A stretch of 21,630 bases of DNA from NCBI GenBank assembly GCA_030698575.1, contig JAUYMQ010000135.1:1-21630 (forward strand), read 5' to 3'. Positions 483 to 21,630 of this stretch are shown here, in pieces (position 1 is the stretch's first letter; every line of letters begins with the position of its first letter). Under the pieces are notes generated by a model. That model was not told where the DNA came from and made no database searches. It saw nothing but the letters and a program-made list of their open reading frames with translations. This DNA comes from Deltaproteobacteria bacterium (GTDB taxonomy: Bacteria; JAUYMQ01). The position numbers were made by a program, and so were the translations under genes.

Positions 483-2068
483 CCGCCCGGCTCCCTCCGT
501 CGCAGAAGATCCCGCCCCTCCATCCACGCGGGCGCGGCGCGCCCGGTGAGCGCCAGGGCCGTGGGCGCCACGTCGCCGATCCACGCGCGATCGGGAAGGC
601 GCCCCGGCGCAACGGCCGGCCCCGCGCCCAGAAGCACGCCGTCGCGGCGGTGCGAGCCGTTCATCCCGCCCTCCTTGCCGCCCACATGCTCGGCGGCGCT
701 GATCCTGCGCACGCTCGGGCCGCCAGCCGGACCTTGTGAGCGCAGGCAGGAGACCGAGTAGCCGTCGCGCAGCGCGAAGTCGAGAAAGAGGTCGGGCGCA
801 AGCGAAGCGTAGGGTCCGCGATAGATCTCCTCGCGCCGGTACACCCCCTTCAGCATCGGCGCTCCGTCGATCGGATCGCGCCAGGCCAGCAGCCGGTCGG
901 TGAGCGAATCGAGTGCGCGATTTGCATCACGTGCAGGCACGGTCCCCTGAGGGTCCCGCCCGGTGAGATTGAGCCAGATCGACGGTGCGTAGTTCAACTC
1001 CTCCGAGAAGGCCCGCGTCGTATCGAGATCGATCGCCCCGAAACGTGCGGCGCTCTCGACGGCGCTCGCCAGGGCCGGCGCGGCCCGGAAGGCGGCCTCC
1101 TGGGCGCGCGCGGGGAGGGATCGGAGGGCGAGGCGCTTGGCGGACGCGGCAGCGCGCTGCACCGCCCCCTTCGACCGACGGAAGGTGAGCAACCCCTCCT
1201 CTTCGAGCCAGCGGTTCACGTAGACCGCCCGATCGCCGGCGCCGCCGAAACCGTGATCACTCGCCACGAGGACATGCGCGCCGGGACCGGCCGCTTCCAC
1301 AAGCGCGCCCACGGCTTCATCGAGGCGCCGGTAGATGCGCCTGATCGCGTCGCCGTGCTCGCGGGCGCCGCCCGGGTCGTGCCGCGGGCTATCCGGGTCG
1401 TGGTACATCCAGAAGTGGTGGCTCACGGTGTCGGATTCTCCGAAGAGCACCATGAACGCGTCATACCCTCCCTGGGCGAGCAGGTGCAGGGCGAGCTTTT
1501 CCTTGCGCGCGGCCGTGTCGAGAAGCGAGGCGAGTGCGGCGCCATGCCATCCGGGACCGATGTCGATCTCCTGGAAATCGGCGAAGCGCCAGGCGCCGAT
1601 AACGCGCCGGATGGTTTCGTACAGCGCGGGGGGCTGCACGAAGCGCGGCGTGATTCCCGTCGCGATGGGGGAGTCGAAGCCCGCGATCACCTCCCCGCGC
1701 AACTTCTCCGGCGGGAAGGTAGTGGGAACGCCGAGCACCGCCACGCGCCCGCCGTCGTCGGAGAGCAGCCGGAGGAAGGTCGGCAGCCGGCGGTCTGCAC
1801 CGGAGGCGAAGCGGACAGCGTAGCTGCCGGGGACGCGGAGAGTGAAATCGAGAAGGCCGTGGGCGCCGGGATTGGCGCCCGTCAGGAAGGTGGACCAGGC
1901 GGGGTAAGTCACCGGCGGAAAGGTGCTTTCGAGCAACGTGAGCCCGCCGGCGCGAACGAGCGCGCCCAGGCTCGGGAGGCTTCCTTCGGCGATCCAGCGG
2001 CGAACGAGCGTGGGCTCGAGGCCGTCGAGCCCAATGATGAGCAGCCTGGTCTTCGGGGAGCGCCGCAC
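479..2068 (-). CDS. Type I phosphodiesterase/nucleotide pyrophosphatase-like protein, no signal peptide
   Basis: Predicted phosphoesterase of the alkaline phosphatase superfamily, 529 residues from a GTG start. The metal and catalytic set is visible: Asp15 in IIGLDGLEP, nucleophile Thr54 in PPVTYPAWSTF, Asp213 and His217 in ESDTVSHHFW, Asp271-His272 in VASDHGFG, and a late His473. These match the two-metal site of nucleotide pyrophosphatase/phosphodiesterases. The start was chosen because GGGAGG lies 7 nt upstream. The reading frame stays open further upstream, but that stretch is Arg-rich and overlaps the end of the preceding gene out of frame, so it looks like shadow. No signal peptide or TM segment precedes the first beta strand, so the protein should be cytoplasmic or exported by an unusual route. 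It is a clear paralogue of the lipoprotein at 4082-6073. Its stop overlaps the next gene's ATG. Substrate unknown. Confidence 0.85.
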   Translation of the reverse strand: MRRSPKTRLLIIGLDGLEPTLVRRWIAEGSLPSLGALVRAGGLTLLESTFPPVTYPAWSTFLTGANPGAHGLLDFTLRVPGSYAVRFASGADRRLPTFLRLLSDDGGRVAVLGVPTTFPPEKLRGEVIAGFDSPIATGITPRFVQPPALYETIRRVIGAWRFADFQEIDIGPGWHGAALASLLDTAARKEKLALHLLAQGGYDAFMVLFGESDTVSHHFWMYHDPDSPRHDPGGAREHGDAIRRIYRRLDEAVGALVEAAGPGAHVLVASDHGFGGAGDRAVYVNRWLEEEGLLTFRRSKGAVQRAAASAKRLALRSLPARAQEAAFRAAPALASAVESAARFGAIDLDTTRAFSEELNYAPSIWLNLTGRDPQGTVPARDANRALDSLTDRLLAWRDPIDGAPMLKGVYRREEIYRGPYASLAPDLFLDFALRDGYSVSCLRSQGPAGGPSVRRISAAEHVGGKEGGMNGSHRRDGVLLGAGPAVAPGRLPDRAWIGDVAPTALALTGRAAPAWMEGRDLLRRREPGG

Positions 2069-2081
2069 CCGTGTTCCTCCC
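2066..2081 (-). promoter_or_regulatory. Ribosome binding site deciding the GTG start of the phosphodiesterase gene
   Basis: On the minus strand GGGAGG (2081-2076) is followed by 7 nt and then GTG (2068-2066). It lies in the short gap after the TAG of the upstream sulfatase-like gene. It supports a 529-residue product rather than a longer one running back into the upstream gene. Confidence 0.7.
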
Positions 2082-2106
2082 TTCGGCCCGCGTCTCCCCC
2101 TGGTAA

Positions 2107-3990
2107 CTACTCGACGTAACCGAGCGCGCGGAGCCGCTCCCGTGTGGCGTCGTCCACCTCCACCTGCTCGCCCGCGACGGCGGCCTTCAAGGCTTCGCCC
2201 ATCGTGTGATCCATTCGCCCCCGCATGGCCTTCCAGCGTCCCTCGTCGTCGCCGGCGAGATTCCGGGTCTCGCCCGGATCCTCCGCCAGATTGTAGAGCG
2301 CAATATCGGGGAGCCCACGGGGGTTGTCGGCGTTGGCCTCGATCGTCTTCCATGTGTCGCCGCGTAGCGATCGCAGGCGGTTCCCCTCGAGATCCTCTTC
2401 CGCAAAGCTCTCACCGGTAACCGGCCCGGCCGCCAGCGACGCGCCCTGCGTGCGGGCGGGGGCCTCGACGCCCGCCAGATCGAGCACCGTCGGCGTGACA
2501 TCGAGAAGCCGCGCGAGATCGGCCCGCCGGCTCCCCGGCGCGAGACCCGGGGGCCCCCCCGCTGCCGGCTTGACGATCAGCGGCACATGAATCTGCTCTT
2601 CGTACAGCGTGGTTCCGTGCCACCAACCGCCGTGCTCGTGGAATTCCTCCCCGTGATCCGCGGTCAGGATGATGAGCGCGCCGTCATAAATCCCTTCCTC
2701 ACGAAGGTGATCAAAGAGATCCCCCAGGTGCCCGTCGAGATATTCTATTTCGCCATCATACAGGTCGGACAGCTCGCCGGCCCGGGCGGCGTCGGGGTTC
2801 GGTGTCTGGACCCGCGCCACGGCCGTGCCGTCATAGGGATGGCGGAAGTAGGGGTCATGCGGGTCCATGTAGTGAATGAAGAGGAAGAACCGCGAACCCC
2901 GGTTGCGATCGATCCAGGCCTTGCCGGCCTCGGTCACCGTGGCGCCATCCTGGTAGTAGTGCTTCACCTCCTTGCGGCGCGAGAGAAAACGCTCGCGCAC
3001 AAGCCGGAGGCTGTTGTAAACGGCGAGCTTCGAGGAGGATTCCTTCGCGCCGAAAAAATAGTTCGGCGCCAGATAGTGATACTCGCCGAAACCCTGATCA
3101 AACTGGTAACTCGGCGCGAGGTTGACGTTCGAAACAATTCCGCCGGTCCGCCACCCGGCGCCCGCCAGCGACTCGGCGAGCGTATCCACTTCTTCCGGCA
3201 AGCGATCAACCTTGCCGATAGCCCGGTGGGTCGACGGGTAGAGCCCCGTGAGAAGCGTCGCCGTGGACGGCTTGGTCCATGACGCCTGCGCCGAGCCTTT
3301 CTCGAAGACCACGCCGTCCGAAGCGAGACGATCGATGGCGGGCGTGGAAGCGCCCTTGTAGCCGTAAGCGGGCAGGCGATCCGCGCGCAGCGTGTCGACC
3401 ATGATGAGGATGACGTCGGGCCGCCCGGCGAGCGCCGGGGGAATCCCGCCTTCCGGCGGCGCCGGCGCCGCGGCCGGCGAGGCGACCAGCTGCGCGCAGA
3501 CGGCCCCGATGATGATCACTGCCACCGCGCCTCCGACAAGCTTCATCGGCGGCGCCCCGGCGTCCGCGGCAGCGCGCCGGGCACGCGCGCGCAGAACGAG
3601 CCAGGCCAGAACAAAAAGCAGCGTGAACAAGCCGAGGAGTGCGAGCTGGTGGAGCGGCGGCATCGCGTGCTCGCCGAGCAGGTCGCGATTGATGCGGAAG
3701 CGGGCGAAGACGAAGCCGCCGCCGAACAGCACCGCGGGGAGAAGAAAGGCCGCAAACGCTCTCTCTCCCGGACGGCGCCGTCCCAGAAGGCCAAGCGCGA
3801 AGCCCGCTCCCGCGCCCGCCGCAGCCATCACGACGGCATACAGCGCGGGCCCGAACCAGAGCGCCTGGGCCTCAATGCGTTCGCTCGAGCCGAGCGACAC
3901 CGCCCAGCCTTCGGCGAACCCCAGAAGCGCCCCGGCAAGAAGGCCGGCGGCAGCGCCGGCAATCAGAAGACGGATAAGTGCGCGGATCAC
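2107..3990 (-). CDS. Membrane-anchored sulfatase-like hydrolase (alkaline phosphatase superfamily), Thr at the nucleophile position
   Basis: A 627-residue protein with about five N-terminal hydrophobic segments (roughly residues 4-26, 44-70, 78-97, 112-133, 150-170), then a Pro/Ala linker, then a sulfatase-fold domain from about residue 190. With a cytoplasmic N-terminus (MIRALIR), five passes put the catalytic domain outside the membrane. Metal-site motifs are visible: Asp199 and Asp204 in VDTLRADRLPAYG, Asp445-His446 in LTADHGEEF, and further His in HEHGGWWHG. The nucleophile region reads ASWTKPSTATLLTG. The position used for formylglycine Cys/Ser in sulfatases is Thr239, and the following Arg of CxPSR is missing. 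A true formylglycine sulfatase is therefore unlikely; a phosphoesterase or transferase with a Thr nucleophile fits better. The C-terminus ends in RLRALGYVE, a tail I have seen in related sulfatase-annotated proteins. The GTG start lacks a strong ribosome site and is the least certain part. It lies between two phosphodiesterase paralogues. Confidence 0.85.
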   Translation of the reverse strand: MIRALIRLLIAGAAAGLLAGALLGFAEGWAVSLGSSERIEAQALWFGPALYAVVMAAAGAGAGFALGLLGRRRPGERAFAAFLLPAVLFGGGFVFARFRINRDLLGEHAMPPLHQLALLGLFTLLFVLAWLVLRARARRAAADAGAPPMKLVGGAVAVIIIGAVCAQLVASPAAAPAPPEGGIPPALAGRPDVILIMVDTLRADRLPAYGYKGASTPAIDRLASDGVVFEKGSAQASWTKPSTATLLTGLYPSTHRAIGKVDRLPEEVDTLAESLAGAGWRTGGIVSNVNLAPSYQFDQGFGEYHYLAPNYFFGAKESSSKLAVYNSLRLVRERFLSRRKEVKHYYQDGATVTEAGKAWIDRNRGSRFFLFIHYMDPHDPYFRHPYDGTAVARVQTPNPDAARAGELSDLYDGEIEYLDGHLGDLFDHLREEGIYDGALIILTADHGEEFHEHGGWWHGTTLYEEQIHVPLIVKPAAGGPPGLAPGSRRADLARLLDVTPTVLDLAGVEAPARTQGASLAAGPVTGESFAEEDLEGNRLRSLRGDTWKTIEANADNPRGLPDIALYNLAEDPGETRNLAGDDEGRWKAMRGRMDHTMGEALKAAVAGEQVEVDDATRERLRALGYVE

Positions 3991-4081
3991 GGAAAGGGCC
4001 CATCCTTCGCCCGGCAGAGCGTTACGCTCGGCCGGCGGCCGGTGATGAGATTCGGGCGCGGCATGACGGCGGGTCGAAATG

Positions 4082-6073
4082 CTACCACAGGCGCTCGCCT
4101 TCGACGTCGGGAGGCGGCGTGAGCCCGTACTCGTAGAGCAGGGTAGGCGCCAGATCGACGATCTCGGGATTGGCGAGATTCAGGCGCTCGTTCACCAGGA
4201 TGATCCCCGCCGTGTCGGTCACGTCGCTTGCGGCGTGATCGCCACTCCACTTCTTGGTGTTGGGGCCGGTAAGCGAATCTGGAATCCCGCCGAGCACCGT
4301 TTCCCAGCTTGTCCTCCAGCCGGGGCTGAACGCGAGTTGCAGGTCGGGCCTTTCCAGCGGATCGGCGCCGGGAAATATCTTCTCTCCGATGTAGACCTTC
4401 TTCATCGGGACCTCGCCGGTTTCCGGATCGCGGAAAGCCTCGAGCTTGCTGGCAATCTCCGCTGCAAGATCCGCCGCCTCCTCGCGCGGCACGATGCCGT
4501 CGCGCTCTCGCCCCTGGAGATTGAGATAGACCTGCCCCGTGCCGATGGCGTAGGCCCTGGTGCCGGACCAGTCGACGTCCGCAAAGAACTCCTTCGCGCT
4601 GAACTTCCCGTCGGAACTCTCCGGCGTCGGGAACAGCTTCATGTATCCGTTGCGGACGAGCCACGTGTTGGTGTGCAGCCCTCGCCGGAAGCTGTGGAAA
4701 CCGTGGTCGGAGAGGATGACGAGCGTCGCGCCTTCCGGAAGCCGCTCCAGCACCTTTCCCACTGTCTGATCCATCCGCACGTACGACTCCTCGATCGCCC
4801 GGGAGTAGCGGTCGGCCAGCTCTGCGTCGTAGCGGGGACTCTGCTTGTCGATGAGCCGATAGAACATATGGGAGACGCGATCCGGGGCTGTTGATACCCA
4901 GATGAGCAGATCCCAGTTGTCCGCATCGAGCGCGCCGAGCAGCATCGCCTCCTTCTGATCCTCCACCGACGCGGCGTCTTCCAGAAAAGCTTTCTCGTCC
5001 AGCCGCTCGTCGTTCAGGCCGGAAGTGTCGTGATCCCATCCGAGGGTCTTGTAGAGGCCGTGCGCTTCGGCCAGCGACGCGGAGAACGTCTCGGGGCTCG
5101 AGATGGACGCGTAGGGATCGAGCGGGTCGTAGTTGAGCGGCGAGCCGTAGACGCGCAACCCCGGAGCCGCTTCGAGGACGTAGAAGCGACAGATGCCTCT
5201 AATCTCGTAGAAGGGTGAAACGCGGAAGGAGACGGGCGCCCAGGGAGTCCACTCGCCCTCGGCCGCCGACACCTCCGCGCCGCCCAGCCGGATGGTCACC
5301 CGCTTGCGCGGGGCGTCGAGCTCGAACTCGATGGGAACAGTCAGCGCCTCGCGATCCTCGCTCGCCGGATCCGTGGGCCCTTTCAGAATCGCGTTCGCGC
5401 GCCCGTCGTTCACCTGGATGCTCACGAGTCGCCCTCCGGCCACCGCGCCCGCGGACCCGGCCTCCTGCAGATCGTCGCCGAAGTAATAGAAGGTGCTGTT
5501 CGTGCCGAGAAGATCCGGCGTGCCGAGCCCGGACAGCTGGCGCCCGGTCGGCGCCACCTCGTCCGGCGGGAAGGTGTAGGGGACGGAGATCACGGTCACG
5601 CGCACGCCCGCGTCGGAGGCGATCTTCCAGAAGCTCTCTCCCCGACGCGGGTTGTGCCCCTCGGGGCCCTTCGAAGGCCAGAGCCCCCAGCGCATCTCCG
5701 GCGGCGAAATGGTGGAAGTCGCGACGGCGGGGAGATAGCTGGCCGGATCGCGGCGCACGAAGTCGTAGATGCCGTGCCTTCCGGGATTCATCCCCGTCGC
5801 GAAGGTGGACCAGGCAACGGGGCTCTGGGGCGGATTGGTCGAGCCGAGCGGCACGAAGGTGCCCTCGGTGGCCAGCTTCTTCAGGTTGGGCAACCGCCCG
5901 GCGTCGATCCATTCCTGGAGAAAGTCGGGATCGACGCCGTCGAAGCCCAGCACGACGATCTTCGGGCGATCCTCAGCCGGCGGGGGAAGCGCCTTGTCGC
6001 CGGTGTCGCAGCCGGAGAGGGCCGTCAGGAGAAGCAGGACGGGCAACGCTCGAAGGGCGGATCCATTATTCAA
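4082..6073 (-). CDS. Lipoprotein phosphodiesterase of the alkaline phosphatase superfamily
   Basis: A 663-residue predicted lipoprotein hydrolase. The N-terminus has a hydrophobic stretch ending in the lipobox LSGC (Cys22 lipidated), followed by Asp23 and an acidic, Pro-rich linker. The catalytic domain starts at about residue 37. Visible site residues are Asp45 (VLGFDGVDP), Ser84 at the nucleophile position (PPQSPVAWSTF), Asp398 and His402 (TAPDRVSHMFY), Asp456-His457 (ILSDHGF) and His613 (SGDHAAS). An insert of about 130 residues near 190-320 looks like a beta-rich cap and is larger than in the paralogue at 479-2068. The TTG start at 6073 is used because GAGG lies 9 nt upstream, overlapping the pyrE stop, and because it places the signal peptide correctly. 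The gap to pyrE is only 11 bp, so co-transcription is likely. Substrate unknown; an envelope phosphodiester such as a lipid head group or glycan decoration is an inference. Confidence 0.87.
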   Translation of the reverse strand: MNNGSALRALPVLLLLTALSGCDTGDKALPPPAEDRPKIVVLGFDGVDPDFLQEWIDAGRLPNLKKLATEGTFVPLGSTNPPQSPVAWSTFATGMNPGRHGIYDFVRRDPASYLPAVATSTISPPEMRWGLWPSKGPEGHNPRRGESFWKIASDAGVRVTVISVPYTFPPDEVAPTGRQLSGLGTPDLLGTNSTFYYFGDDLQEAGSAGAVAGGRLVSIQVNDGRANAILKGPTDPASEDREALTVPIEFELDAPRKRVTIRLGGAEVSAAEGEWTPWAPVSFRVSPFYEIRGICRFYVLEAAPGLRVYGSPLNYDPLDPYASISSPETFSASLAEAHGLYKTLGWDHDTSGLNDERLDEKAFLEDAASVEDQKEAMLLGALDADNWDLLIWVSTAPDRVSHMFYRLIDKQSPRYDAELADRYSRAIEESYVRMDQTVGKVLERLPEGATLVILSDHGFHSFRRGLHTNTWLVRNGYMKLFPTPESSDGKFSAKEFFADVDWSGTRAYAIGTGQVYLNLQGRERDGIVPREEAADLAAEIASKLEAFRDPETGEVPMKKVYIGEKIFPGADPLERPDLQLAFSPGWRTSWETVLGGIPDSLTGPNTKKWSGDHAASDVTDTAGIILVNERLNLANPEIVDLAPTLLYEYGLTPPPDVEGERLW

Positions 6074-9719: not shown

Positions 9720-10076
9720 ATGCTCGGCGAGTACGTTCCGGTCCTCATTACCCTGGTGGTCGCGATGGGACTGGCGGCCACATTCATCCTGCTCACGACC
9801 ATTCTCGGCCCGAAGCGGTATCTGCGCGTAAAAATGGAGCCGTTCGAGTGCGGGGTGGAGCAGCTGGTGAGCCCTCGCCGGCGCTTCAGCGTCAAGTTTT
9901 ACCTCGTGGCCATGCTCTTCATCCTTTTCGATATCGAGGTGGTGTTCCTCTACCCCTGGGCGGTGCGCTTCCGCGAGCTGGGGTGGTACGGCTTCGGCGC
10001 CATGATGATTTTTCTGGGGGTGGTTTTCATCACGCTCGCCTACGAATGGCGCAAGGGCGCGCTCGACTGGGATTGA
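9720..10076 (+). CDS. nuoA: NADH-quinone oxidoreductase subunit A
   Basis: A small membrane subunit of complex I that helps form the quinone-site/membrane interface with NuoH, J and K. It has 118 residues and three TM segments (about 8-30, 62-82, 91-111). The conserved loop PFECGVEQ (about 41-48) and the second-helix acidic motif LFDIEVVFLYPW are present. The ATG at 9720 gives the family's normal length. It is the first gene of the operon. The next gene, 23 bp on, is nuoC; nuoB, which normally follows nuoA, is missing. Confidence 0.95.
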   Translation: MLGEYVPVLITLVVAMGLAATFILLTTILGPKRYLRVKMEPFECGVEQLVSPRRRFSVKFYLVAMLFILFDIEVVFLYPWAVRFRELGWYGFGAMMIFLGVVFITLAYEWRKGALDWD

Positions 10077-10099
10077 AGGTTACCGGCTGAGGAAGCGTT

Positions 10100-10627
10100 A
10101 TGGATGCACCAGTAGAGGGGAACAGGGCGGCGGGGGACTCGGACGAGAAGCCCTCGCCGGCCGTGCAGCGCGTCCTCGAGAGATTTTCCGGCGACGTTCT
10201 GAGCCGGCACGCCTATCGCGGCGATGACACCCTCGTGATCAAGCGCGAGGCCGTCGTCGATGTCTGTCGATTCCTGAAGGCGGAGCCGGATCTCCGCTTC
10301 GACCTCTTTCTCGATCTCACGGCCGTGGACTACCTCCCCGTCGAACCGCGCTTCGAAGTCGTCATCCATCTCTATTCGACACCCCATGGGCTTCGCATGC
10401 GCCTGAAGGTGCCGCTCGCAGGCGACGATCCGGAGATGGATACGCTCACATCCGTGTGGCGGGCGACCGACTGGTTCGAGCGTGAAGCCTGGGACATGTA
10501 CGGGATCGTCTTCCGCGGCCACCCGAACCTGAAGCGGATCCTGCTTTACGAGGAGTTCGAGGGCCATCCGCTGCGCAAGGACTACCCCATCGACAAGCGT
10601 CAGCCCTTGATCGGGCCAAAGAACTGA
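10100..10627 (+). CDS. nuoC: NADH-quinone oxidoreductase subunit C
   Basis: A peripheral-arm subunit of the complex I quinone module (30-kDa family), without cofactors. The 175-residue protein has a variable N-terminal tail (residues 1-25) and the diagnostic C-terminal signature FEREAWDMYGIVFRGHP, followed by LKRILLYEEFEGHPLRKDYP. It is a separate gene, not fused to nuoD as in E. coli. GAGGAAG precedes the ATG with good spacing. It takes the place directly after nuoA where nuoB is usually found. Confidence 0.95.
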   Translation: MDAPVEGNRAAGDSDEKPSPAVQRVLERFSGDVLSRHAYRGDDTLVIKREAVVDVCRFLKAEPDLRFDLFLDLTAVDYLPVEPRFEVVIHLYSTPHGLRMRLKVPLAGDDPEMDTLTSVWRATDWFEREAWDMYGIVFRGHPNLKRILLYEEFEGHPLRKDYPIDKRQPLIGPKN

Positions 10628-10640
10628 GGCGGAAGCGCTG

Positions 10641-11831
10641 ATGGCCGAACCGGAAAATGAGCTTCACACAGATGAGATGATCCTGAACATTGGGCCGTCT
10701 CATCCCGCCACGCACGGAACCGTTCGTGTACTCGCCACGCTCGACGGCGAGAACATCGTGAATGCGGATGTCGAGATTGGATACCTTCACCGGGCCTTCG
10801 AGAAGAGCTGCGAGCACGGCACCTGGCAACAGGCTTTCCCCTACACCGATCGGCTGAACTACAACTCCGCAATCATCAACAACGTCGCCTACGCCATGGG
10901 CGTCGAGAAGCTCCTCGGCATCGATGTTCCCGAGCGCTGCCGCTTCATCCGGACCATCGCCTCCGAGATCTCGCGCGTCGCCGATCATCTTACCTGCATC
11001 GGGCCCAGCGCCATGGAGGTCGGGGCCTTCTCGACCTTCCTTTACTTCGTGGAAGCCCGCGAACTCATGTGGGATCTGATCGAATCGCTCTGCGGCGCGC
11101 GGCTCACGAACAACTACGTGCGCATCGGCGGCGTCAAGGCTGATCTGCCCGCTGACTTCGCGGAGAAACTCAAGGCTCACTTCGTCAAGACCCGCCAGCT
11201 CATCGACGACGTCGACAAGCTCCTCACCCACAACCGCATCTTCATCGATCGCATGCGTGGCACCGGCGTGCTCTCCGCGGAAGACGCGATCGACTGGGGC
11301 TGGACCGGCCCCTGCCTGAGATCCACGGGCGTGCCGCTGGATCTGCGAAAGGACGAACCTTACCTGGTATACGACCAGGTGGACTTCGACGTCCCTGTGG
11401 GAGAGTACGGCGACAATTTCGATCGCTACCTCGTGCGGATGGAGGAGATGCACCAGTCGATGCGCATGGTCGAGCAGCTCCTGGAGAAGATCCCCGAAGG
11501 CCCGATCAACGTCGAGGATACCCGGGTGCGCTGGCCGGCCAAGCAGCTCGTCTATTCGCGGATGGAGGAGCTGATCAATCACTTCAAGATCGTCTTCGAG
11601 GGCGTGCAGCCGCCGAAAGGCGAGGCCTACGCGGCGGTCGAGAGCCCGAACGGCGAGCTGGGCTTCTATCTGGTGAGCGACGGCTCAGGCAAGCCCGTGA
11701 AGGTGCGCTGCCGCCCGCCGGGCTTCGCGAACCTCCAGGCGCTGGGCCCCATCCTGAAGGGCGGCATGCTGTCCGATCTGGTTCCGAGCTTCGGGATGAT
11801 CAACATGATCGGGGGGGAGTGCGACCGGTGA
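10641..11831 (+). CDS. nuoD: NADH-quinone oxidoreductase subunit D
   Basis: The 49-kDa-family subunit that forms the quinone-binding pocket with NuoB and NuoH. It has 396 residues, the family's normal length. Landmarks: NIGPSHPATHGTVRV near the N-terminus with the quinone-site His; PYTDRLNYNS containing the expected pocket Tyr; EISRVADHL; and the C-terminal KVRCRPPGFANLQAL followed by MIGGECDR. The [NiFe]-hydrogenase-type nickel Cys ligands are absent, as expected. GAGGCGGAAG precedes the ATG 13 bp after nuoC. The TGA overlaps the nuoE start as GTGA. Its partner NuoB is not in the window. Confidence 0.97.
   Translation: MAEPENELHTDEMILNIGPSHPATHGTVRVLATLDGENIVNADVEIGYLHRAFEKSCEHGTWQQAFPYTDRLNYNSAIINNVAYAMGVEKLLGIDVPERCRFIRTIASEISRVADHLTCIGPSAMEVGAFSTFLYFVEARELMWDLIESLCGARLTNNYVRIGGVKADLPADFAEKLKAHFVKTRQLIDDVDKLLTHNRIFIDRMRGTGVLSAEDAIDWGWTGPCLRSTGVPLDLRKDEPYLVYDQVDFDVPVGEYGDNFDRYLVRMEEMHQSMRMVEQLLEKIPEGPINVEDTRVRWPAKQLVYSRMEELINHFKIVFEGVQPPKGEAYAAVESPNGELGFYLVSDGSGKPVKVRCRPPGFANLQALGPILKGGMLSDLVPSFGMINMIGGECDR
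11811..11830 (+). promoter_or_regulatory. Ribosome binding site and GTG start of nuoE inside the nuoD end
   Basis: GGGGGGGAG (11811-11819) lies 8 nt before GTG 11828, which overlaps the nuoD TGA (11829-11831) as GTGA. This favours GTG 11828 over the in-frame GTG at 11819, which would sit inside the purine run, and suggests coupled translation. Confidence 0.6.
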
Positions 11832-12298
11832 GCCTGCTGAACGAAGCCGCGCGCAAGGAGATCCTGGAGTGCACCAAGCGCTATCCCGAGAAGCGGGCTG
11901 CGCTGCTTCCGGCGCTCCACGTACTGCAGCGGGATCACGGCTGGATTCCCCAGGAAGGGATGAAAGAGGTGGCCGAGCTGCTCGGCCTCAAGCCGGCCGA
12001 GGTGCTGGAAGTCGTTACGTTCTACACGATGTTCAATCAGAAGCAGGTCGGGCGGCACCATATCCAGGTCTGCCGGAACATCTCCTGCGCGTTGCGCGGG
12101 GCGCGGCGCATCACCCGTCACATCTCGGGCAAGCTGGGCATCCAGACCGGCGAGACGACCCCTGACGGACAGTTCACGCTGAGCGAGGTCGAGTGCCTCG
12201 GCTCCTGCGGCACGGCCCCCATGCTGATGCTGAACGACGATTACCACGAGAACCTGACCGAACCGCGCGTCGACGAGATCCTCGATGATCTCTCCTGA
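11828..12298 (+). CDS. nuoE: NADH-quinone oxidoreductase subunit E
   Basis: The 24-kDa-family subunit of the NADH-oxidising module; its thioredoxin-like domain holds [2Fe-2S] cluster N1a. It has 156 residues from GTG 11828. The four ligands are visible as Cys82 and Cys87 in VCRNISC, and Cys123 and Cys127 in ECLGSCG. The N-terminal helical domain includes LLPALHVLQRDHGWIP and FYTMFNQK, both typical. It overlaps the nuoD stop by 4 bp and lies 21 bp before nuoF, with which it forms a heterodimer. Confidence 0.96.
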   Translation: MSLLNEAARKEILECTKRYPEKRAALLPALHVLQRDHGWIPQEGMKEVAELLGLKPAEVLEVVTFYTMFNQKQVGRHHIQVCRNISCALRGARRITRHISGKLGIQTGETTPDGQFTLSEVECLGSCGTAPMLMLNDDYHENLTEPRVDEILDDLS

Positions 12299-12319
12299 CG
12301 GCGCGGGCGGGCGGTGGCG

Positions 12320-13606
12320 ATGAGCGAAGCCTACCTCACCACACACTTCGGCGAGAAGGACTCGGCGAAGCTCGATTTCTACCTCTCCCACCGGGGGTAC
12401 GAATCGGCGCGCCGCGCGATCGGCTCGATGACCCCCTCCGAGGTCGTTCAGCTCGTCAAGGACAGCGGGCTGCGGGGCCGCGGCGGCGCCGGGTTCTCGA
12501 CCGGCCTCAAGTGGAGCTTCATGCCCAAGCCCGGGCAGGACGACCGCCCGCGGTACATCGCCTGCAACGCGGATGAGTCGGAGCCGGGCACCTTCAAGGA
12601 TCGCGCCATCATGGAGCGGGATCCGCACCAGCTCATCGAGGGACTCATCATCGCCGGATGGGCGATGCAGGCCAAGGCCGCCTACATCTATATCCGGGGC
12701 GAGTACGTCCATCCGGCCCGCGTGCTGGAGGCCGCCCTCCGGGAAGCCTACGACGGGGGCTATCTGGGACCGCGCGTGATGGGCACCGACTTCGCCTTCG
12801 ACGTCTATCTGCACCGGGGGGCTGGCGCCTACATCTGCGGGGAAGAGACCGGGCTCATGGAGAGCCTGGAGGGGAAGAAGGGGCAGCCCCGGAAGAAGCC
12901 GCCCTTCCCGGCGAACTACGGTCTGTGGGGAATGCCCACGACGGTGAACAACGTCGAGACCTTCTGCCACGTGGTGCACGTCGTCGATCGCGGGATCGAC
13001 TGGTTCCGTGGCATCGGCACCGAGAAGAGCACCGGGACAACGCTGTTCGGCGTTTCGGGGCACGTGGTGCGGCCGGGTTACTTCGAGTTACCCCTCGGCA
13101 CAACGGCCAGGGAGATCATCTTCGAGCACGCCGGCGGAATCGCGAACGGCCGGCAGCTGAAGGGCTTCATCCCGGGGGGCTCCTCGACCAAGCCGCTGCC
13201 CGCCTCGGCCGTGGACGTCAGGATGGATCATGATTCTCTCGCCGCAGCCGGAAGCGCGCTGGGGACCGCGGGGCTCATCGTCATGGACGACACCACCTGC
13301 ATGGTGCGCGCCTCGAAGGTGATCGCGCACTTCTACCGCGACGAGTCCTGCGGGCAGTGCACGCAGTGCCGCGAGGGCACGGCCTGGCTCGACAAGCTCA
13401 TCGGCCGCATCGAGGCCGGCGCCGGCCGCATGGAGGATCTGGATCTCCTGCTCGATGTGGCCAATTCGATCGAGGGCGTGACGATCTGCGCCCTCTCGGA
13501 CGCCGCCGCCTGGCCCGTGCAGGGCGTTCTTAAACACTGGCGGGACGAGTTCGCGCGGCACGTGAAGGAAGGGAAGTGCCCCTTCCCGGAAAGCTTCGAA
13601 GTCTAG
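12320..13606 (+). CDS. nuoF: NADH-quinone oxidoreductase subunit F
   Basis: The NADH-binding 51-kDa-family subunit: FMN accepts the hydride and passes electrons to [4Fe-4S] cluster N3. The product is 428 residues. FMN/NADH motifs are GLRGRGGAGFSTGLKW, ACNADESEPGTFKDR and GAGAYICGEETGLMESLEG; the NNVET motif follows. Cluster ligands are the three Cys of ESCGQCTQCREG (344, 347, 350) and Cys390 in TICALSD. An in-frame GTG at 12314 is an alternative start adding two residues; ATG 12320 has GGGCGG five bases upstream. All catalytic elements look intact, so NADH oxidation is expected. Confidence 0.97.
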   Translation: MSEAYLTTHFGEKDSAKLDFYLSHRGYESARRAIGSMTPSEVVQLVKDSGLRGRGGAGFSTGLKWSFMPKPGQDDRPRYIACNADESEPGTFKDRAIMERDPHQLIEGLIIAGWAMQAKAAYIYIRGEYVHPARVLEAALREAYDGGYLGPRVMGTDFAFDVYLHRGAGAYICGEETGLMESLEGKKGQPRKKPPFPANYGLWGMPTTVNNVETFCHVVHVVDRGIDWFRGIGTEKSTGTTLFGVSGHVVRPGYFELPLGTTAREIIFEHAGGIANGRQLKGFIPGGSSTKPLPASAVDVRMDHDSLAAAGSALGTAGLIVMDDTTCMVRASKVIAHFYRDESCGQCTQCREGTAWLDKLIGRIEAGAGRMEDLDLLLDVANSIEGVTICALSDAAAWPVQGVLKHWRDEFARHVKEGKCPFPESFEV

Positions 13607-13618
13607 CAAGGAAAGACG

Positions 13619-15202
13619 ATGCCCAAGTTCACGATCGACGGGAAAGAGATCGTCGTGGAGCCCGGCACCACGATACTCCAGGCCGCGAAGGCGCACGGCA
13701 TCCGGATTCCCTACTTTTGCTGGCACCCCAAGCTGTCGATCGACGGCTCCTGCCGCATGTGCCAGGTGGAAGTCGAGAAGATGCCCAAGCTGCAGATTGC
13801 CTGTAACACGCCGGTGCTCGAAGGCATGGTGGTGAACACGCAAACTCCGAAGGTCGAGGACGCCCGGCGCGCGGTAATGGAGCTTCTTCTCATCAACCAT
13901 CCCCTCGACTGCCCCATCTGCGACCAGGCCGGCGAGTGCAAGCTGCAGAACTACTGCTTCGACTACGGCATGCGTCACAGCCGTTATGTCGAACCGAAGC
14001 GCCTGCTCAGCAAGCGAGTGGATATCGGCCCTCGCGTTCTCCTCGACGAAGAGCGCTGCATTCTCTGCCGTCGATGCGTCAGGTTCTGCCGGGAGGTCAG
14101 CAAGACCGGTGAGCTAACCGTGCACAACCGGGGTGATCACAGTGTCATTGCGACCTTCCCCGGGCAGAAACTGGACAACCGCTACTCGATCTGCACATGC
14201 GACATCTGCCCGGTCGGGGCGCTCACGGGCAAGGATTTCCGATTCAAGGTGCGGGTCTGGTTTCTGAAAGAAACTCCCTCCGTCTGCACAGGTTGCGCGA
14301 ACGGCTGCAATATCAACGTCGCGGTTTACAAGGATCGGATCTATCGATACCTTCCCCGCCGGAACGACGCCGTGAACGACACCTGGATGTGTGACGACGG
14401 CCGCCTTTCCTACGGGCACGTCCAGGCCGAGGATCGGATTCGCGCCGCGCGAATGATCGAGGCGCCCGGCCAGCCCGCCGCCGAGGTTCCGCTCGACATG
14501 GCGGTGGACGCGACCGCCGCGGCGCTCCGCCAGGCGCGCGACAATGACGGCGCCTCCGCCCTCGCGGCGGTGGCAAGCGCGCGGGCGACGAACGAGGATC
14601 TCTTTGTCTTCACGAAGTTCGTCCGGGGCGTCCTCGGCGTAGAGAGATCCGCGATGGTCGTTCCCGCCTGGGAGCCTGACGGGTTTCTCATTCAGGCCGA
14701 GAAGGCGCCGAACGCCGCGGGCGCGCGGGCTATGGGTGTGGGGGGAGAGGACGAGGCGCGGGCGATCCTCGATCGTTGCGAGCGGGGCGAGGTGAATGCG
14801 CTGATCGTGCTGGGCGCCGACCTTCTGCTTGCCGGCGAAAGAGAGAAGGTGCTCACCGCCCTCCGCAAGGTCCCAACCATCGTCTGCCTCGACACCCACG
14901 AAAGCGAACTGTCGCGGATTGCTCACTTCGTTCTTCCCGCCTGCACCTTCGCCGAGAAGGATGGAACGATGACGAACGTGAAGGGGCGCGTGCAGCGCAT
15001 CCGCCCGGCAATCCGGGCCCTGGGCGACGCGCTCCCGGAGTGGGAGATCCTCGGGCGCCTGGCGGCGCGCATGGGGCAGCCGCTCCCCTCCGGCGAGCCG
15101 CGCGAGATCCTGAAAGAGCTGGCGGGCGAGGTGCCGGCCTTCGCCCGCGTGACGCCGGAGAGCGTCGGCACGCAGGGTGTCACTCTGACCGTCGTAGCCT
15201 GA
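13619..15202 (+). CDS. nuoG: NADH-quinone oxidoreductase subunit G, compact form
   Basis: The 75-kDa-family subunit that carries electrons from NuoE/F toward NuoI. All cluster motifs are present: N1b (Cys34, 45, 48, 62), N5 (His94, Cys98, 101, 107), N4 (Cys147, 150, 153, 197) and the N7 motif CX2CX3CX27C (Cys223, 226, 230, 258), which mitochondrial homologues lack. The C-terminal molybdopterin-like domain (about 255-527) is short; 527 residues is well below the roughly 700-900 of common NuoG. It keeps ASARATNED, LIVLGADLL and AEKDGTMTNVKGRVQRI, so internal shortening looks likelier than frameshift. AAGGAAAG precedes the ATG. The last codons (Val-Val-Ala-stop) form the first unit of the tandem repeat at 15191-15260. 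Confidence 0.95.
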   Translation: MPKFTIDGKEIVVEPGTTILQAAKAHGIRIPYFCWHPKLSIDGSCRMCQVEVEKMPKLQIACNTPVLEGMVVNTQTPKVEDARRAVMELLLINHPLDCPICDQAGECKLQNYCFDYGMRHSRYVEPKRLLSKRVDIGPRVLLDEERCILCRRCVRFCREVSKTGELTVHNRGDHSVIATFPGQKLDNRYSICTCDICPVGALTGKDFRFKVRVWFLKETPSVCTGCANGCNINVAVYKDRIYRYLPRRNDAVNDTWMCDDGRLSYGHVQAEDRIRAARMIEAPGQPAAEVPLDMAVDATAAALRQARDNDGASALAAVASARATNEDLFVFTKFVRGVLGVERSAMVVPAWEPDGFLIQAEKAPNAAGARAMGVGGEDEARAILDRCERGEVNALIVLGADLLLAGEREKVLTALRKVPTIVCLDTHESELSRIAHFVLPACTFAEKDGTMTNVKGRVQRIRPAIRALGDALPEWEILGRLAARMGQPLPSGEPREILKELAGEVPAFARVTPESVGTQGVTLTVVA

Positions 15203-15260: not shown

Positions 15261-15308
15261 TGATGCGAATCCCCGAGGTGGGCGCATTACTTCCCGAATG
15301 AGAGCTTG

Positions 15309-16415
15309 ATGCCCGCGGAAGCAATTTTCATGGCCGGCAAGATCGGCTTCGTGTTCTTCCTCGTCCTGAACCTCGCGGGGGTTCTGGGCTGGGTCGAGCG
15401 CAAGCAAAGCGCGCTGATGCAGGATCGCATCGGCGCTAACCGGGCGCCGATCTTCGGCATCACCGCCATCGGGCTTTTCCACCCGCTCGCGGACGCCATC
15501 AAGGCCTTCACGAAGGAAGACTTCATCCCCGCCCGGGCCCACAAGCTCTTCCACACGCTTGCCCCCTTCATCGCGCTGGTGCCGGCGCTCACCGCCTTCG
15601 CCGTGATCCCCTTCGGCGATACGCTCACGATCGGCGGAGAGACCACCCAACTCGTGGTTGCGGATCTCGACGTTGGCGTCCTCTTCGTGTTCGCAATCAT
15701 GTCCCTGGCGACTTTCGGCGTGGTGCTGGCGGGATGGTCCTCCTATAACAACTACTCGATGCTCGGCGGCCTTCGCGCCTCGGCACAGATGCTCTCCTAC
15801 GAGATCGTCATGGGGCTCACGCTGGTCGGCGTCTTCATGGTGTACGGGAGCCTGCAGCTCACCGAGATCGCGCGGGCCCAGGGGGAATACTTCGTGTTTG
15901 GCGGCGTGAACACCTGGATTCCCAAGTGGGGCATCCTCACGCAGCCACTGGCCTTCTTCCTCTTTCTGACGGCGGCCGTCGCGGAGAGCAAGCGCCTCCC
16001 CTTCGACGTGGCCGAGGCCGAGAGCGAGCTGGTCGCGGGCTACTTCACCGAGTACAGCGGGATGAAGTTCCTGATGTTCTGGATGGCGGAGTTCGTCGAG
16101 ATCGTCGTCATCTCGGCGCTCGTGGCCACCCTCTTCCTGGGCGGCTGGCAAATTCCATGGTTGCACCCGGACGGCCTGCACGTCCCCTTCACCGCGATTG
16201 TGGTGGGGCTTCCCTCGCTGGTCGTCTCGATGATGGGTGTAGGCGCGTTCCTGATGAAGGTGTTCGTCCTGATCTGGCTCCAGATGACAATCCGGTGGAC
16301 CCTGCCGAGGTTCCGTTACGACCAGATCATGCGCCTCGGCTGGAAGATGATTCTGCCGCTGGCGCTCGTGAACGTGGTGCTGACGGGCTTCGTCGTGCTT
16401 CTTCTGAACCGCTAG
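15309..16415 (+). CDS. nuoH: NADH-quinone oxidoreductase subunit H
   Basis: The membrane subunit (ND1 family) that forms the quinone chamber and links the peripheral arm to the proton-pumping arm. It has 368 residues and about eight or nine TM segments. Conserved elements: [13 protein letters not shown] (Glu30), [14 protein letters not shown], and the acidic loop [17 protein letters not shown] followed by [11 protein letters not shown]. The usual RxGPNR reads RIGANR (residues 40-45), with Ala for Pro. ATG 15309 is preferred to the adjacent TTG at 15306; GAGAG lies about 5 nt upstream. The 106-bp gap before it holds the tandem repeat. The next gene is nuoJ, 44 bp on, where nuoI would be expected first. 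Confidence 0.96.
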
Positions 16416-16459
16416 TGAACTGGGGCCGGCGCCAGGCGGCGCGGCTCCCGGAGTGACGT

Positions 16460-16954
16460 GTGCAGCAGCTATTCTACGTGTTCGGCTCCCTCGCCGTGGC
16501 CTCGGGCCTGCTGATGGTGCTTCAGCGCAACCCGATCACGGCCGCGATGAACCTCGTCGTCACCATGTTCTCGCTGGCGGCGCTCTTCGTGCTGCTGAGC
16601 GCCCACTTCATCGCCGTCATCCAGCTGCTGGTATACGCCGGCGCGATCATGGTGCTTTTCATCTTCGTGATCATGTTGCTGAACCTGCAGGACGACGAGC
16701 TGCGTCCCCGCGGCCGCAACTTCATTCACCTGGTGAGCGTCGCGGTCGTGCTCTTCGCGATGGCGCAACTCTGGCAGCTCCTGAGCCGCACGCCGGCCAT
16801 CCCCCTCGCGCCCGTGGACGAGGCCTACGGAACCACCGGCGAGATGGGCATGCTCCTTTTCAGCGACTACCTGTTTCCCTTCGAGATCGTGAGCATTCTC
16901 ATCCTGGCCGCGATCGTCGGGGCGGTAGTCCTCGCCAAGCGGAGGCTCGACTGA
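16460..16954 (+). CDS. nuoJ: NADH-quinone oxidoreductase subunit J
   Basis: A membrane subunit (ND6 family) next to NuoA, K and H. It has 164 residues and five TM segments. The conserved third-helix region with its pi-bulge reads [19 protein letters not shown] (about 54-72), followed by the LNLQDDE loop. The GTG start at 16460 has GGAG 6 nt upstream. It ends 2 bp before nuoK. Confidence 0.95.
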
Positions 16955-16956
16955 CC

Positions 16957-17259
16957 ATGCCCCCGTTGAATCACTATTTGGCGCTGAGCGGCGTCCTCTT
17001 CTTCATCGGGGTGGCGGGGGTGCTCACACGCCGGAACGCGATCATCGTCTTCATGTGCATCGAGTTGATGCTAAACGCCGTCAATCTGACGTTCCTGGCC
17101 TACGCCCGATTCCTCGGGTCGATGACCGGGCACGTCTTCGCCTTTTTCGTGATCACCGTGGCCGCCGCGGAAGCCGCCGTCGGCCTGGCCATCATCGTCG
17201 CCATCTTCCGCAACAAGGAGACGGTGAACATCGACGAACTGAACCTCATGCGTTGGTGA
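16957..17259 (+). CDS. nuoK: NADH-quinone oxidoreductase subunit K
   Basis: A small antiporter-related membrane subunit (ND4L family) that takes part in proton transfer. It is exactly 100 residues with three TM segments, from the ATG at 16957. Both functional glutamates occupy the E. coli positions: Glu36 in [11 protein letters not shown] and Glu72 in [12 protein letters not shown]. It lies 2 bp after the nuoJ stop. The same frame stays open upstream across nuoJ, so an automated longest-ORF call would place the start far too early; the family length settles it. Confidence 0.95.
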
Positions 17260-17305: not shown

Positions 17306-19348
17306 ATGGAACAGGGAACCTCGCTCGACATCATCCGCTGGATCATCGCCGCGCCGCTTGCCGGCGCAGCTCTAAACGGGCTGCTCGGACGGCGGTGGAA
17401 CAGGCGCGGCGAGAGGCTCATCGCGCTCGTCGGGTGCGGATCCGTCGCGATCTCCTTCGCGCTGTCACTCGCAGTGGTTGGGCGGCTGCTCGCCCTTCCC
17501 CCCGAGGCGCGGCTGCTCGTGGATCACCTCTACACCTGGATCGAGGCGGGTGCCTTCCGCGCCGAGGTGGCTTTCACACTCGATCCGCTTTCCGCGGTAA
17601 TGCTCCTCGTGGTGACCGGGGTCGGGCTGCTGATCCACATCTATTCCGCCGGCTACATGCGCGGCGACGGCGGCTTCTGGCGCTACTTCAGCTACCTGAA
17701 CCTCTTCATGTTCTCGATGCTGGTGCTGGTGCTCGGGGACAACCTCCTGCTCCTCTTCGTCGGGTGGGAAGGCGTGGGGCTCTGCTCCTACCTCCTGATC
17801 GGGTTCTGGTTCGAGGACCCGGAAAAGGCGAGCGCGGGGAAGAAAGCCTTCGTGGTCAACCGGGTGGGCGATTTCGGATTCCTGCTCGGCATCCTTCTTC
17901 TCTTCTGGTCGCTGTCGGCCGCGGGACATCCCACGGTGAGCTTCGCCGGCATCGCCGAGCATGTCGGCCTTCTGGCGGACAGCGCGGTGAGCTTCACGCT
18001 TCCCATTCTGGGCCCCCAGACCTGGGGGGTCTGCACGCTCATCGGACTCCTGCTTTTCGTCGGCGCCGCAGGGAAGTCGGCCCAGATCCCGCTCTATGTC
18101 TGGCTCCCCGACGCGATGGCCGGCCCCACACCGGTCTCGGCGCTCATCCACGCCGCCACGATGGTTACGGCAGGCGTTTACATGATCGCGCGGATGCACT
18201 TCCTCTATGATCTCGCGCCCGGCGCCCTCGACGTCATCGCCGCCATCGGCGCGGCCACGGCCATCTTCGCGGCGAGCATGGGCATCGCGCAGACCGACAT
18301 CAAGAAGGTGCTGGCCTACTCGACCGTGAGCCAGCTCGGGTACATGTTCCTCGCCTGCGGTGTGGGCGCCTACACGGCCGCGATCTTCCATCTCATGACG
18401 CACGCATTCTTCAAGGGGCTGCTGTTCCTGGGTTCGGGATCGGTCATCCACGGCATGGGGGGCGAGCAGGACATCCGGCGGATGGGCGGGCTGGCGAAGC
18501 TCATGCCAATCACCACCTGGACGTTCCTCATTGCGACGCTTGCGATCAGCGGCATTCCGCCCTTCGCCGGTTTTTTCTCGAAGGACGAGATCCTCCACTT
18601 CGCTTATCAGCAGAGCGGCGCGCTCTGGGCCGTCGGCGCCACGGCGGCGTTCATGACCGCTTTCTACATGTTCCGCCTTTTCTTCCTGACCTTCACCGGG
18701 AGCTGCCGCGCCGACGCCAAAACGAAAGCGCACGTGCACGAATCCCCCGCCGTCATGTGGGTTCCACTGGCGATCCTCGCCGCGCTTTCGTTTCTCGGGG
18801 GGATGATCGGCTGGCCTCGCGCACTGGGCGGCGCGGTGGTCGGCGGCAACCACTTCCACCATTTTCTCGAGCCGGTTTTTGGCGGGCAGTCCGGCGGACA
18901 CGCCGGCGCGTACACGGCAGGTGCCGAAGCGGCCTCGCACGGGCCTTCCGAGATCGCCCTGGCGGCCGTCTCGGTGGGGATCGCGCTGGCGGGGATTGCG
19001 CTGGCCTGGCTCATCTACAGCAAGGCCCGCGGCGTGCTCCCGATGGTGCTCGCCATGAAATCGCGGCTATTCGCCGACGTCATGAGGATCGTCTCGGACA
19101 AGTATTACGTCGACGAGCTGTACGAACTGGTCATCGTGCGGCCAATCCGCGTGTTCTCGGACGTCGTCCTGTTCCGTTTCGTGGACGTGCGGGTAATCGA
19201 TGGGTTGCTGGTGAACGGCCCCGCCGAGACGGTAGCCCTCCTGGCCCGCGGCGTGATTAGCAGGCTCCAGACAGGCGTGGCCCAAAGCTACGCGCTCGCG
19301 ATGACGATCGGCGTGGTGGCGCTCATCGCCTACATCGCCCTCAGCTAG
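17306..19348 (+). CDS. nuoL: NADH-quinone oxidoreductase subunit L
   Basis: The distal antiporter-like proton-pumping subunit (ND5 family). It has 680 residues and about 16 TM segments. The charged residues of the channel are present: Glu155 in GWEGVGLCSYL and Lys257 in GAAGKSAQIPLYVWLPDA; PTPVSALIHAATMV follows. The C-terminal part (about 585-660), with DKYYVDELYELVIVRP, matches the lateral amphipathic helix and final TM anchor. GGGA precedes the ATG at good distance. It is 46 bp after nuoK and 12 bp before nuoM. Confidence 0.97.
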   Translation: MEQGTSLDIIRWIIAAPLAGAALNGLLGRRWNRRGERLIALVGCGSVAISFALSLAVVGRLLALPPEARLLVDHLYTWIEAGAFRAEVAFTLDPLSAVMLLVVTGVGLLIHIYSAGYMRGDGGFWRYFSYLNLFMFSMLVLVLGDNLLLLFVGWEGVGLCSYLLIGFWFEDPEKASAGKKAFVVNRVGDFGFLLGILLLFWSLSAAGHPTVSFAGIAEHVGLLADSAVSFTLPILGPQTWGVCTLIGLLLFVGAAGKSAQIPLYVWLPDAMAGPTPVSALIHAATMVTAGVYMIARMHFLYDLAPGALDVIAAIGAATAIFAASMGIAQTDIKKVLAYSTVSQLGYMFLACGVGAYTAAIFHLMTHAFFKGLLFLGSGSVIHGMGGEQDIRRMGGLAKLMPITTWTFLIATLAISGIPPFAGFFSKDEILHFAYQQSGALWAVGATAAFMTAFYMFRLFFLTFTGSCRADAKTKAHVHESPAVMWVPLAILAALSFLGGMIGWPRALGGAVVGGNHFHHFLEPVFGGQSGGHAGAYTAGAEAASHGPSEIALAAVSVGIALAGIALAWLIYSKARGVLPMVLAMKSRLFADVMRIVSDKYYVDELYELVIVRPIRVFSDVVLFRFVDVRVIDGLLVNGPAETVALLARGVISRLQTGVAQSYALAMTIGVVALIAYIALS

Positions 19349-19360
19349 GGACCGAATGCG

Positions 19361-20935
19361 ATGCCGATGGAGAACCTGACAACCTGGATCACCTTCCTGC
19401 CACTGCTCGGGGCGGCGGTGGTCGTGCTGATCCCGGGGAGATCGGAGAACGCCCTGCGCCTCACCGCGCTGGCCTTCGCCACAGCGACCTTCGTCCTGTC
19501 GGCGCGGCTCTGGGCGGGTTTCGACGGGGGGGACGGCGGTTTCCAGTTCCTGGATGAAGCGCGATGGATCCCCCAGTACGGCATCGCTTACAGCGTCGGG
19601 GTGGACGGGATCAGCCTCTTCCTCGTGATTCTCACCACCTTCATGGTGCCGGTGACGCTGCTTGCCGCGTGGCGCGACATCACCATGCACGTGAGGGCCT
19701 TCCTGGCCGCCATGCTCGCCCTCGAGACCGGCATGCTGGGCGCGTTCGTCTCCCTCAATGTGTTTCTCTTCTACATATTTTGGGAAGCGATGCTGGTGCC
19801 CATGTACCTCATCATCGGGGTCTGGGGCGGGCCGAGACGCATCTACGCCGCGGTGAAGTTCTTCCTCTACACGCTGATCGGCAGCCTTCTGATGTTGCTG
19901 GCGATTATCTACCTCTACATTCTTCACCACGAGCAGTTCGGCGCCTGGACGTTTGACCTGCTGCGGCTCTACGAAGTGCAGGTGCCGCTGGGGGAGGGCT
20001 GGCTGGGGCCCCAGACGCTGCTCTTCCTGGCTTTTGGCCTCGCATTCGCCGTGAAGGTGCCGGTCTGGCCTTTCCACACCTGGCTGCCGGACGCACACGT
20101 CGAGGCGCCCACGGCGGGCTCGGTGATCCTGGCGGCAATCCTTCTGAAGATGGGCACCTACGGTTTCCTCAGGTTCTCGCTGCCGCTATTCCCCGACGCC
20201 ACCGTGCAGCTCGTTCCCTGGGTGTTCTGCCTCGCGATCATCGGCATCATCTACGGAGCGCTCGTCGCGATGGTGCAGGCCGACGTGAAGAAGCTCGTCG
20301 CCTACTCCTCCGTGAGTCACCTCGGCTTCGTAATGCTGGGAATGTTCGCGCTGAATCTGCAGGGCGTGCAGGGAGGGCTCCTGCAGATGGTGAACCACGG
20401 CCTCTCTACGGGGGCGCTCTTCATCCTGGTGGGGATGATCTACGAGCGGCGCCACACGCGCATGATCGCTGACTTCGGCGGGCTCTCGAAATCGCTCCCG
20501 ATCCTTGCGGCTTTCTTTCTCGTTGTCACGTTCTCCTCGATCGGCCTGCCGGGCCTGAACGGGTTCATAGGCGAGTTCCTCGTGCTGCTCGGTGTCTTCA
20601 AGGTTTCGCCCTGGTCGGCGGCCCTGGCTGCAACAGGCGTGATCCTCGCGGCGGTCTACATGCTCTGGATGGTGCAGCGGGTGTTTTTCGGCCCCTGCGA
20701 TCGCGAGGAGAACAAGGGGCTCCAGGATCTCAGTCTGCGTGAGTTGGCGGTCCTCATCGCCGTCGTTCTCCCGATCGTCTGGATCGGCGTGCACCCCGGC
20801 ACATTTACCTCGAAGACAGGGCCCGCCGTCGCACAGCTTCTCCAGCGCGTCGAATCGAAGAGCGCCGGAGGCTGGCGCGCCGACGGCGGCCAGCCGGATG
20901 AGGCGCGGCTGTCGAGCCGGGAGGCGGCCCGATGA
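19361..20935 (+). CDS. nuoM: NADH-quinone oxidoreductase subunit M
   Basis: An antiporter-like proton-pumping subunit (ND4 family) between NuoL and NuoN. It has 524 residues and about 14 TM segments. Key residues: Glu142 in FWEAMLVPMYLI, Lys232 in AFAVKVPVWPFHTWLPDAH, and Lys263 in LLKMGTYGF. The last 30 residues or so form a charged, Gly/Arg-rich hydrophilic tail after the final TM segment, longer than usual and without recognisable motif. The in-frame ATG at 19367 is an alternative start. Its TGA overlaps the nuoN ATG as ATGA. Confidence 0.97.
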   Translation: MPMENLTTWITFLPLLGAAVVVLIPGRSENALRLTALAFATATFVLSARLWAGFDGGDGGFQFLDEARWIPQYGIAYSVGVDGISLFLVILTTFMVPVTLLAAWRDITMHVRAFLAAMLALETGMLGAFVSLNVFLFYIFWEAMLVPMYLIIGVWGGPRRIYAAVKFFLYTLIGSLLMLLAIIYLYILHHEQFGAWTFDLLRLYEVQVPLGEGWLGPQTLLFLAFGLAFAVKVPVWPFHTWLPDAHVEAPTAGSVILAAILLKMGTYGFLRFSLPLFPDATVQLVPWVFCLAIIGIIYGALVAMVQADVKKLVAYSSVSHLGFVMLGMFALNLQGVQGGLLQMVNHGLSTGALFILVGMIYERRHTRMIADFGGLSKSLPILAAFFLVVTFSSIGLPGLNGFIGEFLVLLGVFKVSPWSAALAATGVILAAVYMLWMVQRVFFGPCDREENKGLQDLSLRELAVLIAVVLPIVWIGVHPGTFTSKTGPAVAQLLQRVESKSAGGWRADGGQPDEARLSSREAAR

Positions 20936-21630
20936 CTCTCGAAGCGCCGATGTTCGACATCCGGGCCCTCGAGCCCATGCTGTTCGTCCTGGGGACGGCG
21001 CTGGTGGTGCTTGTGCTCGATCTGGCCCTGCCGCGCCGCGCGCGGGCGGCGCTGGCCATTGTGACGGTTGTCGGCCTCGTGCTCGCCATGCTCTCGAGTC
21101 TTCTTCTCTCACAGGACGCGCCGCTGCGCTTCATGACCGCCTCCCCGTCGATGCTTGTCCTGGACACCTACGCCGTCTTCTTCAATCTGATACTGCTCGC
21201 GGGCGCCATCCTCACCATCCTGGCCTCGGTCAACTACCTCGAAGAAATGCAGGCGCACCACGGCGAGTACTACGTCCTCGTTCTGTGCGCCCTGGCCGGC
21301 ATGATGACCATGGCTGGCGCCACCGATCTCGTCACCGTGTTCCTGGGGCTCGAGGTGATGAGCATTCCGATCTACGTTCTGGCGGGTTTCACACGGCGGC
21401 GGCCGCGATCGAACGAGGCGGCCCTCAAGTACTTTCTCCTCGGGTCTTTCGCGACCGGACTTCTGCTCTACGGCATCGCGCTGACCTATGGAGCCACCGG
21501 CGCGACGGATCTCGCGGCCATCCGCGCCGCCTGGGAGCCCACGCCTCTCGCCCTCGCCGGGATCGGACTCTTGCTCGCCGGTTTCGGCTTCAAGATCTCC
21601 TCCGTGCCCTTCCACATGTGGACGCCCGAC
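20932..21630 (+). CDS. nuoN: NADH-quinone oxidoreductase subunit N, 3' end beyond the window
   Basis: An antiporter-like proton-pumping subunit (ND2 family). The 233 codons in the window are uninterrupted and in frame to the last base. They cover about the first six or seven TM segments. Visible are Glu141 in FLGLEVMSIPIYVLAGF, Lys166 in ALKYFLLGSF and Lys221 in GFKISSVPFHMWTPD, the usual channel residues. The ATG overlaps the nuoM stop (ATGA), so the two are probably translationally coupled. The missing part is roughly half of the usual 450-500 residues. Confidence 0.95.
   Translation, partial: MTLEAPMFDIRALEPMLFVLGTALVVLVLDLALPRRARAALAIVTVVGLVLAMLSSLLLSQDAPLRFMTASPSMLVLDTYAVFFNLILLAGAILTILASVNYLEEMQAHHGEYYVLVLCALAGMMTMAGATDLVTVFLGLEVMSIPIYVLAGFTRRRPRSNEAALKYFLLGSFATGLLLYGIALTYGATGATDLAAIRAAWEPTPLALAGIGLLLAGFGFKISSVPFHMWTPD

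Follow-up and report, generated by a model that had tools for sequence, protein, structure and literature searches.

nuoB and nuoI lie together on a second contig of a deltaproteobacterial draft genome whose main nuo operon lacks both

The window, that is, the whole 21,630-bp stretch of DNA analysed here, comprises all of contig C287 (1-21630). It carries on the + strand a nuo operon with the gene order nuoA, C, D, E, F, G, H, J, K, L, M and the start of nuoN, whose genes and two relevant junctions are as follows.

9720..10076, + strand: nuoA; NCBIfam NuoA models, best E 1.2e-39
10077..10099, + strand: nuoA-nuoC junction, 23 bp without nuoB; SD-like GAGGAAG ahead of the nuoC ATG
10100..10627, + strand: nuoC; TIGR01961 above cut-off, the sole NuoC match in the genome
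10641..11831, + strand: nuoD; TIGR01962 E 5.7e-149, above cut-off
11819..12298, + strand: nuoE; TIGR01958 above cut-off
12314..13606, + strand: nuoF; TIGR01959 above cut-off
13619..15202, + strand: nuoG; 527 aa, with similar length in relatives; TIGR01973 452 bits, slightly below the cut-off of 470
15306..16415, + strand: nuoH; NuoH models
16416..16459, + strand: nuoH-nuoJ junction, 44 bp without nuoI
16460..16954, + strand: nuoJ; NuoJ models
16957..17259, + strand: nuoK; 100-aa frame, matches in relatives of 46-69% at the same operon place
17306..19348, + strand: nuoL; matched by tblastn at the equivalent operon position in relatives
19361..20935, + strand: nuoM; matched by tblastn at the equivalent operon position in relatives
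20932..21630, + strand: nuoN; truncated at the contig end, with an approximate start codon, frame open to the end, matches in relatives of 37-50%

The first-pass annotation, made from the window alone, had claimed that nuoB is missing between nuoA and nuoC, that nuoC has its own ribosome site and that no NuoB-like frame occurs elsewhere in the window. All three observations hold: nuoA and nuoC are intact full-length frames only 23 bp apart (stop at 10076, start at 10100), an SD-like motif precedes the nuoC ATG, and a whole-genome PF01058 search yielded no NuoB-family frame in the window, both of its matches being on other contigs. The description of the operon as otherwise complete had to be corrected, as nuoI is also absent from its place between nuoH and nuoJ and nuoN is truncated where the contig stops. 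The genes of the NADH module, nuoE, nuoF and nuoG, are all present in this main operon. Divergent from it, on the - strand at 479-6073, lie three consecutive long frames that by eye resemble sulfatase/phosphodiesterase (alkaline-phosphatase-superfamily) proteins.

The two PF01058 matches in the genome are a true nuoB on contig C373 (C373:12024-12353, E 5.7e-25) and a distant homologue on contig C72. The C373 NuoB has 177 residues and scores 204 bits, where the NCBIfam cut-off for the NuoB subfamily is 116. It shares 80% identity with the NuoB that the related locus L036 carries within its operon. All four cysteine ligands of cluster N2 are present (C38, C39, C104 and C133) and align with those of all intact relatives. 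About 650 bp downstream of nuoB, with one gene (X) between, lies nuoI, so that the order is nuoB-X-nuoI; the nuoB stop overlaps the start of X, and nuoI follows X. NuoI scores 121 bits against a cut-off of 113 (NCBIfam) and retains two intact CxxCxxCxxxC (4Fe-4S) motifs, CVACGMCEVAC and CMFCGLCEEAC. A promoter-like TTGACA-16-TACACT lies 92 bp upstream of nuoB (one found, 0.1 expected), and lipoamide dehydrogenase-like and lipoyl transferase-like genes, recognised by eye, lie 3' of nuoI. NuoC and true NuoB each occur once in the genome, and the only other NuoI match is the ferredoxin part of a fusion protein on C72. The profile search of the rest of the genome thus returned a single intact nuoB with nuoI nearby, the result that the first-pass annotation had said would support a split operon. 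All 14 complex I subunit genes are present in the genome, with A, C-H and J-N in the window (N partial) and B and I on C373.

The genome is a 4.13-Mb draft in 653 contigs with 91.6% completeness and 4.6% contamination, and C373 is assigned to it by binning and composition only. Independent assemblies or long reads with nuoB between nuoA and nuoC, which would make the gap an assembly deletion, had been named beforehand as the finding that would overturn the observation, and the fragmentation and contamination of the draft, together with the in-operon nuoB kept in the relative L036 and the in-operon nuoI in the relative L035, could suggest that the operon really contains both genes and that C287 lost them in assembly, or that C373 is a contaminant. 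The GC contents of C373 and the window match (0.663 and 0.656), however, and their tetranucleotide profiles correlate with r 0.937, compared with 0.15-0.83 for the loci of related organisms; this agreement in composition opposes the contaminant reading. A precise assembly deletion would require two gene-exact removals that left clean junctions, reading frames and a ribosome site, whereas the only true nuoB and the only true nuoI of the genome sit close together at one other locus; the same direct nuoA-nuoC junction also occurs in 37 other assemblies. We therefore reject the deletion and regard an artefact of either kind as very improbable.

The distant homologue on C72, which is the second Oxidored_q6 match, consists of a NuoB-like domain fused to a NuoI/HycF-like (ferredoxin) domain. 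Its existence is what could favor a complex that works without canonical NuoB, with this or another protein assuming the role of N2. The NuoB-like domain contains zero cysteines, however, and so cannot carry N2, which rules it out as a NuoB substitute. The fusion gene moreover adjoins a NuoD-like gene and membrane (antiporter-like) subunits in a hydrogenase-4-like cluster of its own, and a canonical nuoB is present in the genome. Such a replacement has next to no probability. Of the first-pass proposal that NuoB must be supplied in trans or replaced, the first half is borne out by the nuoB on C373 and the second is not. The C72 cluster (L005 / L002) also encodes what is probably a fused NuoC/NuoD-like protein, and its large subunit ends in NLSYAGHDR and not in the usual CxxC motif. 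Judged from its sequence, the cluster probably encodes a non-hydrogenase, Ehr-like membrane complex.

Gene X (L001 1920-2522, on G000:C373) is a 200-residue frame with a histone-H1-like, Lys/Ala/Pro-rich N-terminus and a C-terminal four-cysteine zinc-ribbon-like domain (C141, C142, C166, C169 and H171). X matched no Pfam or NCBIfam model, no PDB entry credibly and no plasmid record. In 20 related genomes nothing convincing turned up (one match at chance level), and only 2 of 289 other genomes have matches. A paralogue in the same genome (L178 1441-1824, C154), 32-39% identical, adjoins genes for a DegP-like protease and a response regulator, and a relative in genome G254 adjoins response-regulator-like and SufB-like genes, the neighbours being identified by eye in both cases. 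Because these two adjoin non-nuo genes, the data suggest that X belongs to a small family of zinc-ribbon proteins unconnected with complex I. We considered an NDUFS6-type (zf-CHCC) zinc subunit and rejected it given the lack of a profile or PDB match, no more than one chance-level match to X in 20 related genomes and the location of its family elsewhere away from nuo genes. That X helps to assemble complex I in this lineage, or serves it as an accessory zinc subunit, by acting on the N2/N6 module, its capture being the reason why B and I travel together, appears quite improbable.

To see the junction in a wider context, 80 named related loci found through NuoD were compared. A direct nuoA-nuoC junction was present in 37/80 loci and nuoA-B-C in 18/80; the layout is therefore not unusual, and it appears from these loci to be frequent in Binatota-like and deltaproteobacterial MAGs. 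The comparison of relatives suggested in the first-pass annotation thus shows the junction to be common, although L036, one of the nearest relatives, keeps nuoB in the operon. Among the A-C loci with both nuoH and nuoJ visible, nuoI is missing between them in 16/16, a count in which L066 is included by its second nuoH piece since a broken frame inflates its automatic nuoH-nuoJ gap. Within the A-C group, nuoB was found apart from nuoA, C and D of this gene set in 15 genomes and encodes proteins 62-71% identical to the NuoB of the window genome. In the A-C genomes L061, L062 and L063 the search recovered no NuoB other than a second one, more distant or fragmentary, which may reflect draft incompleteness.

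Two further observations were made among these loci. The off-operon NuoB in the genome of L042 (L128 1501-1959) has Cys-Gly at the N2 vicinal site, whereas all other relatives with this site have Cys-Cys; this could be a base error in the MAG, and the same genome carries a second NuoB, 47% identical. The Binataceae-like loci L037-L040, L046, L050 and L051 show nuoB-nuoG and, about 2 kb on, nuoI-C-D-E-F, and no membrane-arm genes were matched near their nuo loci.

Of the A-C loci, 36 group in a single supported clade of the NuoD tree; the window falls outside this clade, grouped with L035 and L036, although support for this grouping is only 75-87. L036 NuoD belongs to the sister pair of the window NuoD; L036 has nuoB between nuoA and nuoC, and L035 has nuoI between nuoH and nuoJ. 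A single event inherited by the window and the Binatota-like clade would account for the junction and the nuoI displacement that both groups share, and the two are neighbours in the NuoD tree. Forcing the A-C rows, including the window and leaving out the myxococcal L097, into one NuoD clade costs 57 log-likelihood units, however, and is rejected (p-AU 0.006). Among the nearest relatives of the window, the operon still includes B in L036 and I in L035, and the search for X found none in genomes of the Binatota-like group. Common inheritance of the junction is thus unlikely. In the NuoB tree the window NuoB stands apart from the Binatota-like NuoB, but this tree is weakly resolved and the window row is unresolved in it. 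Since the one-clade constraint is rejected and L036 keeps B and L035 keeps I, the displacement of nuoB and nuoI in this genome was probably independent of that in the Binatota-like clade, and such displacement has probably happened at least twice. A direct nuoA-nuoC junction is also seen in L097 amid relatives that retain nuoB, possibly a further independent displacement.

Taken together, the genome almost certainly encodes an ordinary 14-subunit NADH:quinone oxidoreductase with its genes in two places, the main operon and nuoB-X-nuoI on C373. The main operon nuoA-C-D-E-F-G-H-J-K-L-M-N would supply 12 subunits from the window contig, and the second unit, behind its own promoter-like site, would supply B and I in trans. 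The subunits of complex I are made separately before they come together, so NuoB and NuoI translated from a second transcript should function normally; they would assemble with the other subunits, and electrons would pass from N6a/N6b to N2 and on to quinone in the ordinary way through the trans-made NuoI and NuoB. Judging by its title, Oppermann 2022 (cited in PMC12361115) reports for E. coli that complex I assembly does not depend on gene order. The N2-holding subunit is not missing, which removes the apparent paradox. Gene-cluster pipelines that expect the 14 genes to lie in a single cluster would mistakenly score the complex I of this genome as incomplete.

The nuo cluster resembles those of the 11-subunit complex I-like enzymes, which lack E/F/G and hence the NADH module, in being short of some subunits, but here nuoE, nuoF and nuoG are present and B and I are merely displaced. 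The first-pass reading of the locus as the reverse of these reduced complexes, with E/F/G kept and B lost, is therefore unsupported, as nothing has been lost from the genome. Compared with a canonical operon (e.g. L103, A-B-C-D-E-F-G-H-I-J-K-L-M), the subunits and their order are the same, but B and I lie within the operon there. The Binatota-like and other MAGs (L042, L045, L060, L068, L073, L082, L083 and others) share the order A-C-D-E-F-G-H-J-K-L-M-N with nuoB elsewhere, but they belong to another NuoD clade and no nuoI or X was found beside their nuoB. In Nitrospina gracilis, the NUO-2 genes are spread over a cluster nuoACHIJKLMN, a second cluster with D/E/G, a solitary F and a nuoB2 that lies elsewhere and belongs to no operon; NuoF2 has no FMN site, and ferredoxin reduction has been proposed for the complex (PMC3578206). 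The present locus is similar in that nuoC comes right after nuoA and nuoB lies away from the cluster. In contrast to NUO-2, where nuoI is in the cluster, the main operon here contains D-E-F-G, and nuoB is accompanied by nuoI at its separate locus, so that the lone nuoB, split-off F and D/E/G apart from A-C of the Nitrospina type are not seen. The split nuo operon is thus of an already known kind, found here in a poorly sampled phylum, and it adds one more lineage with nuoB and nuoI outside the main operon, which indicates more than one such event.
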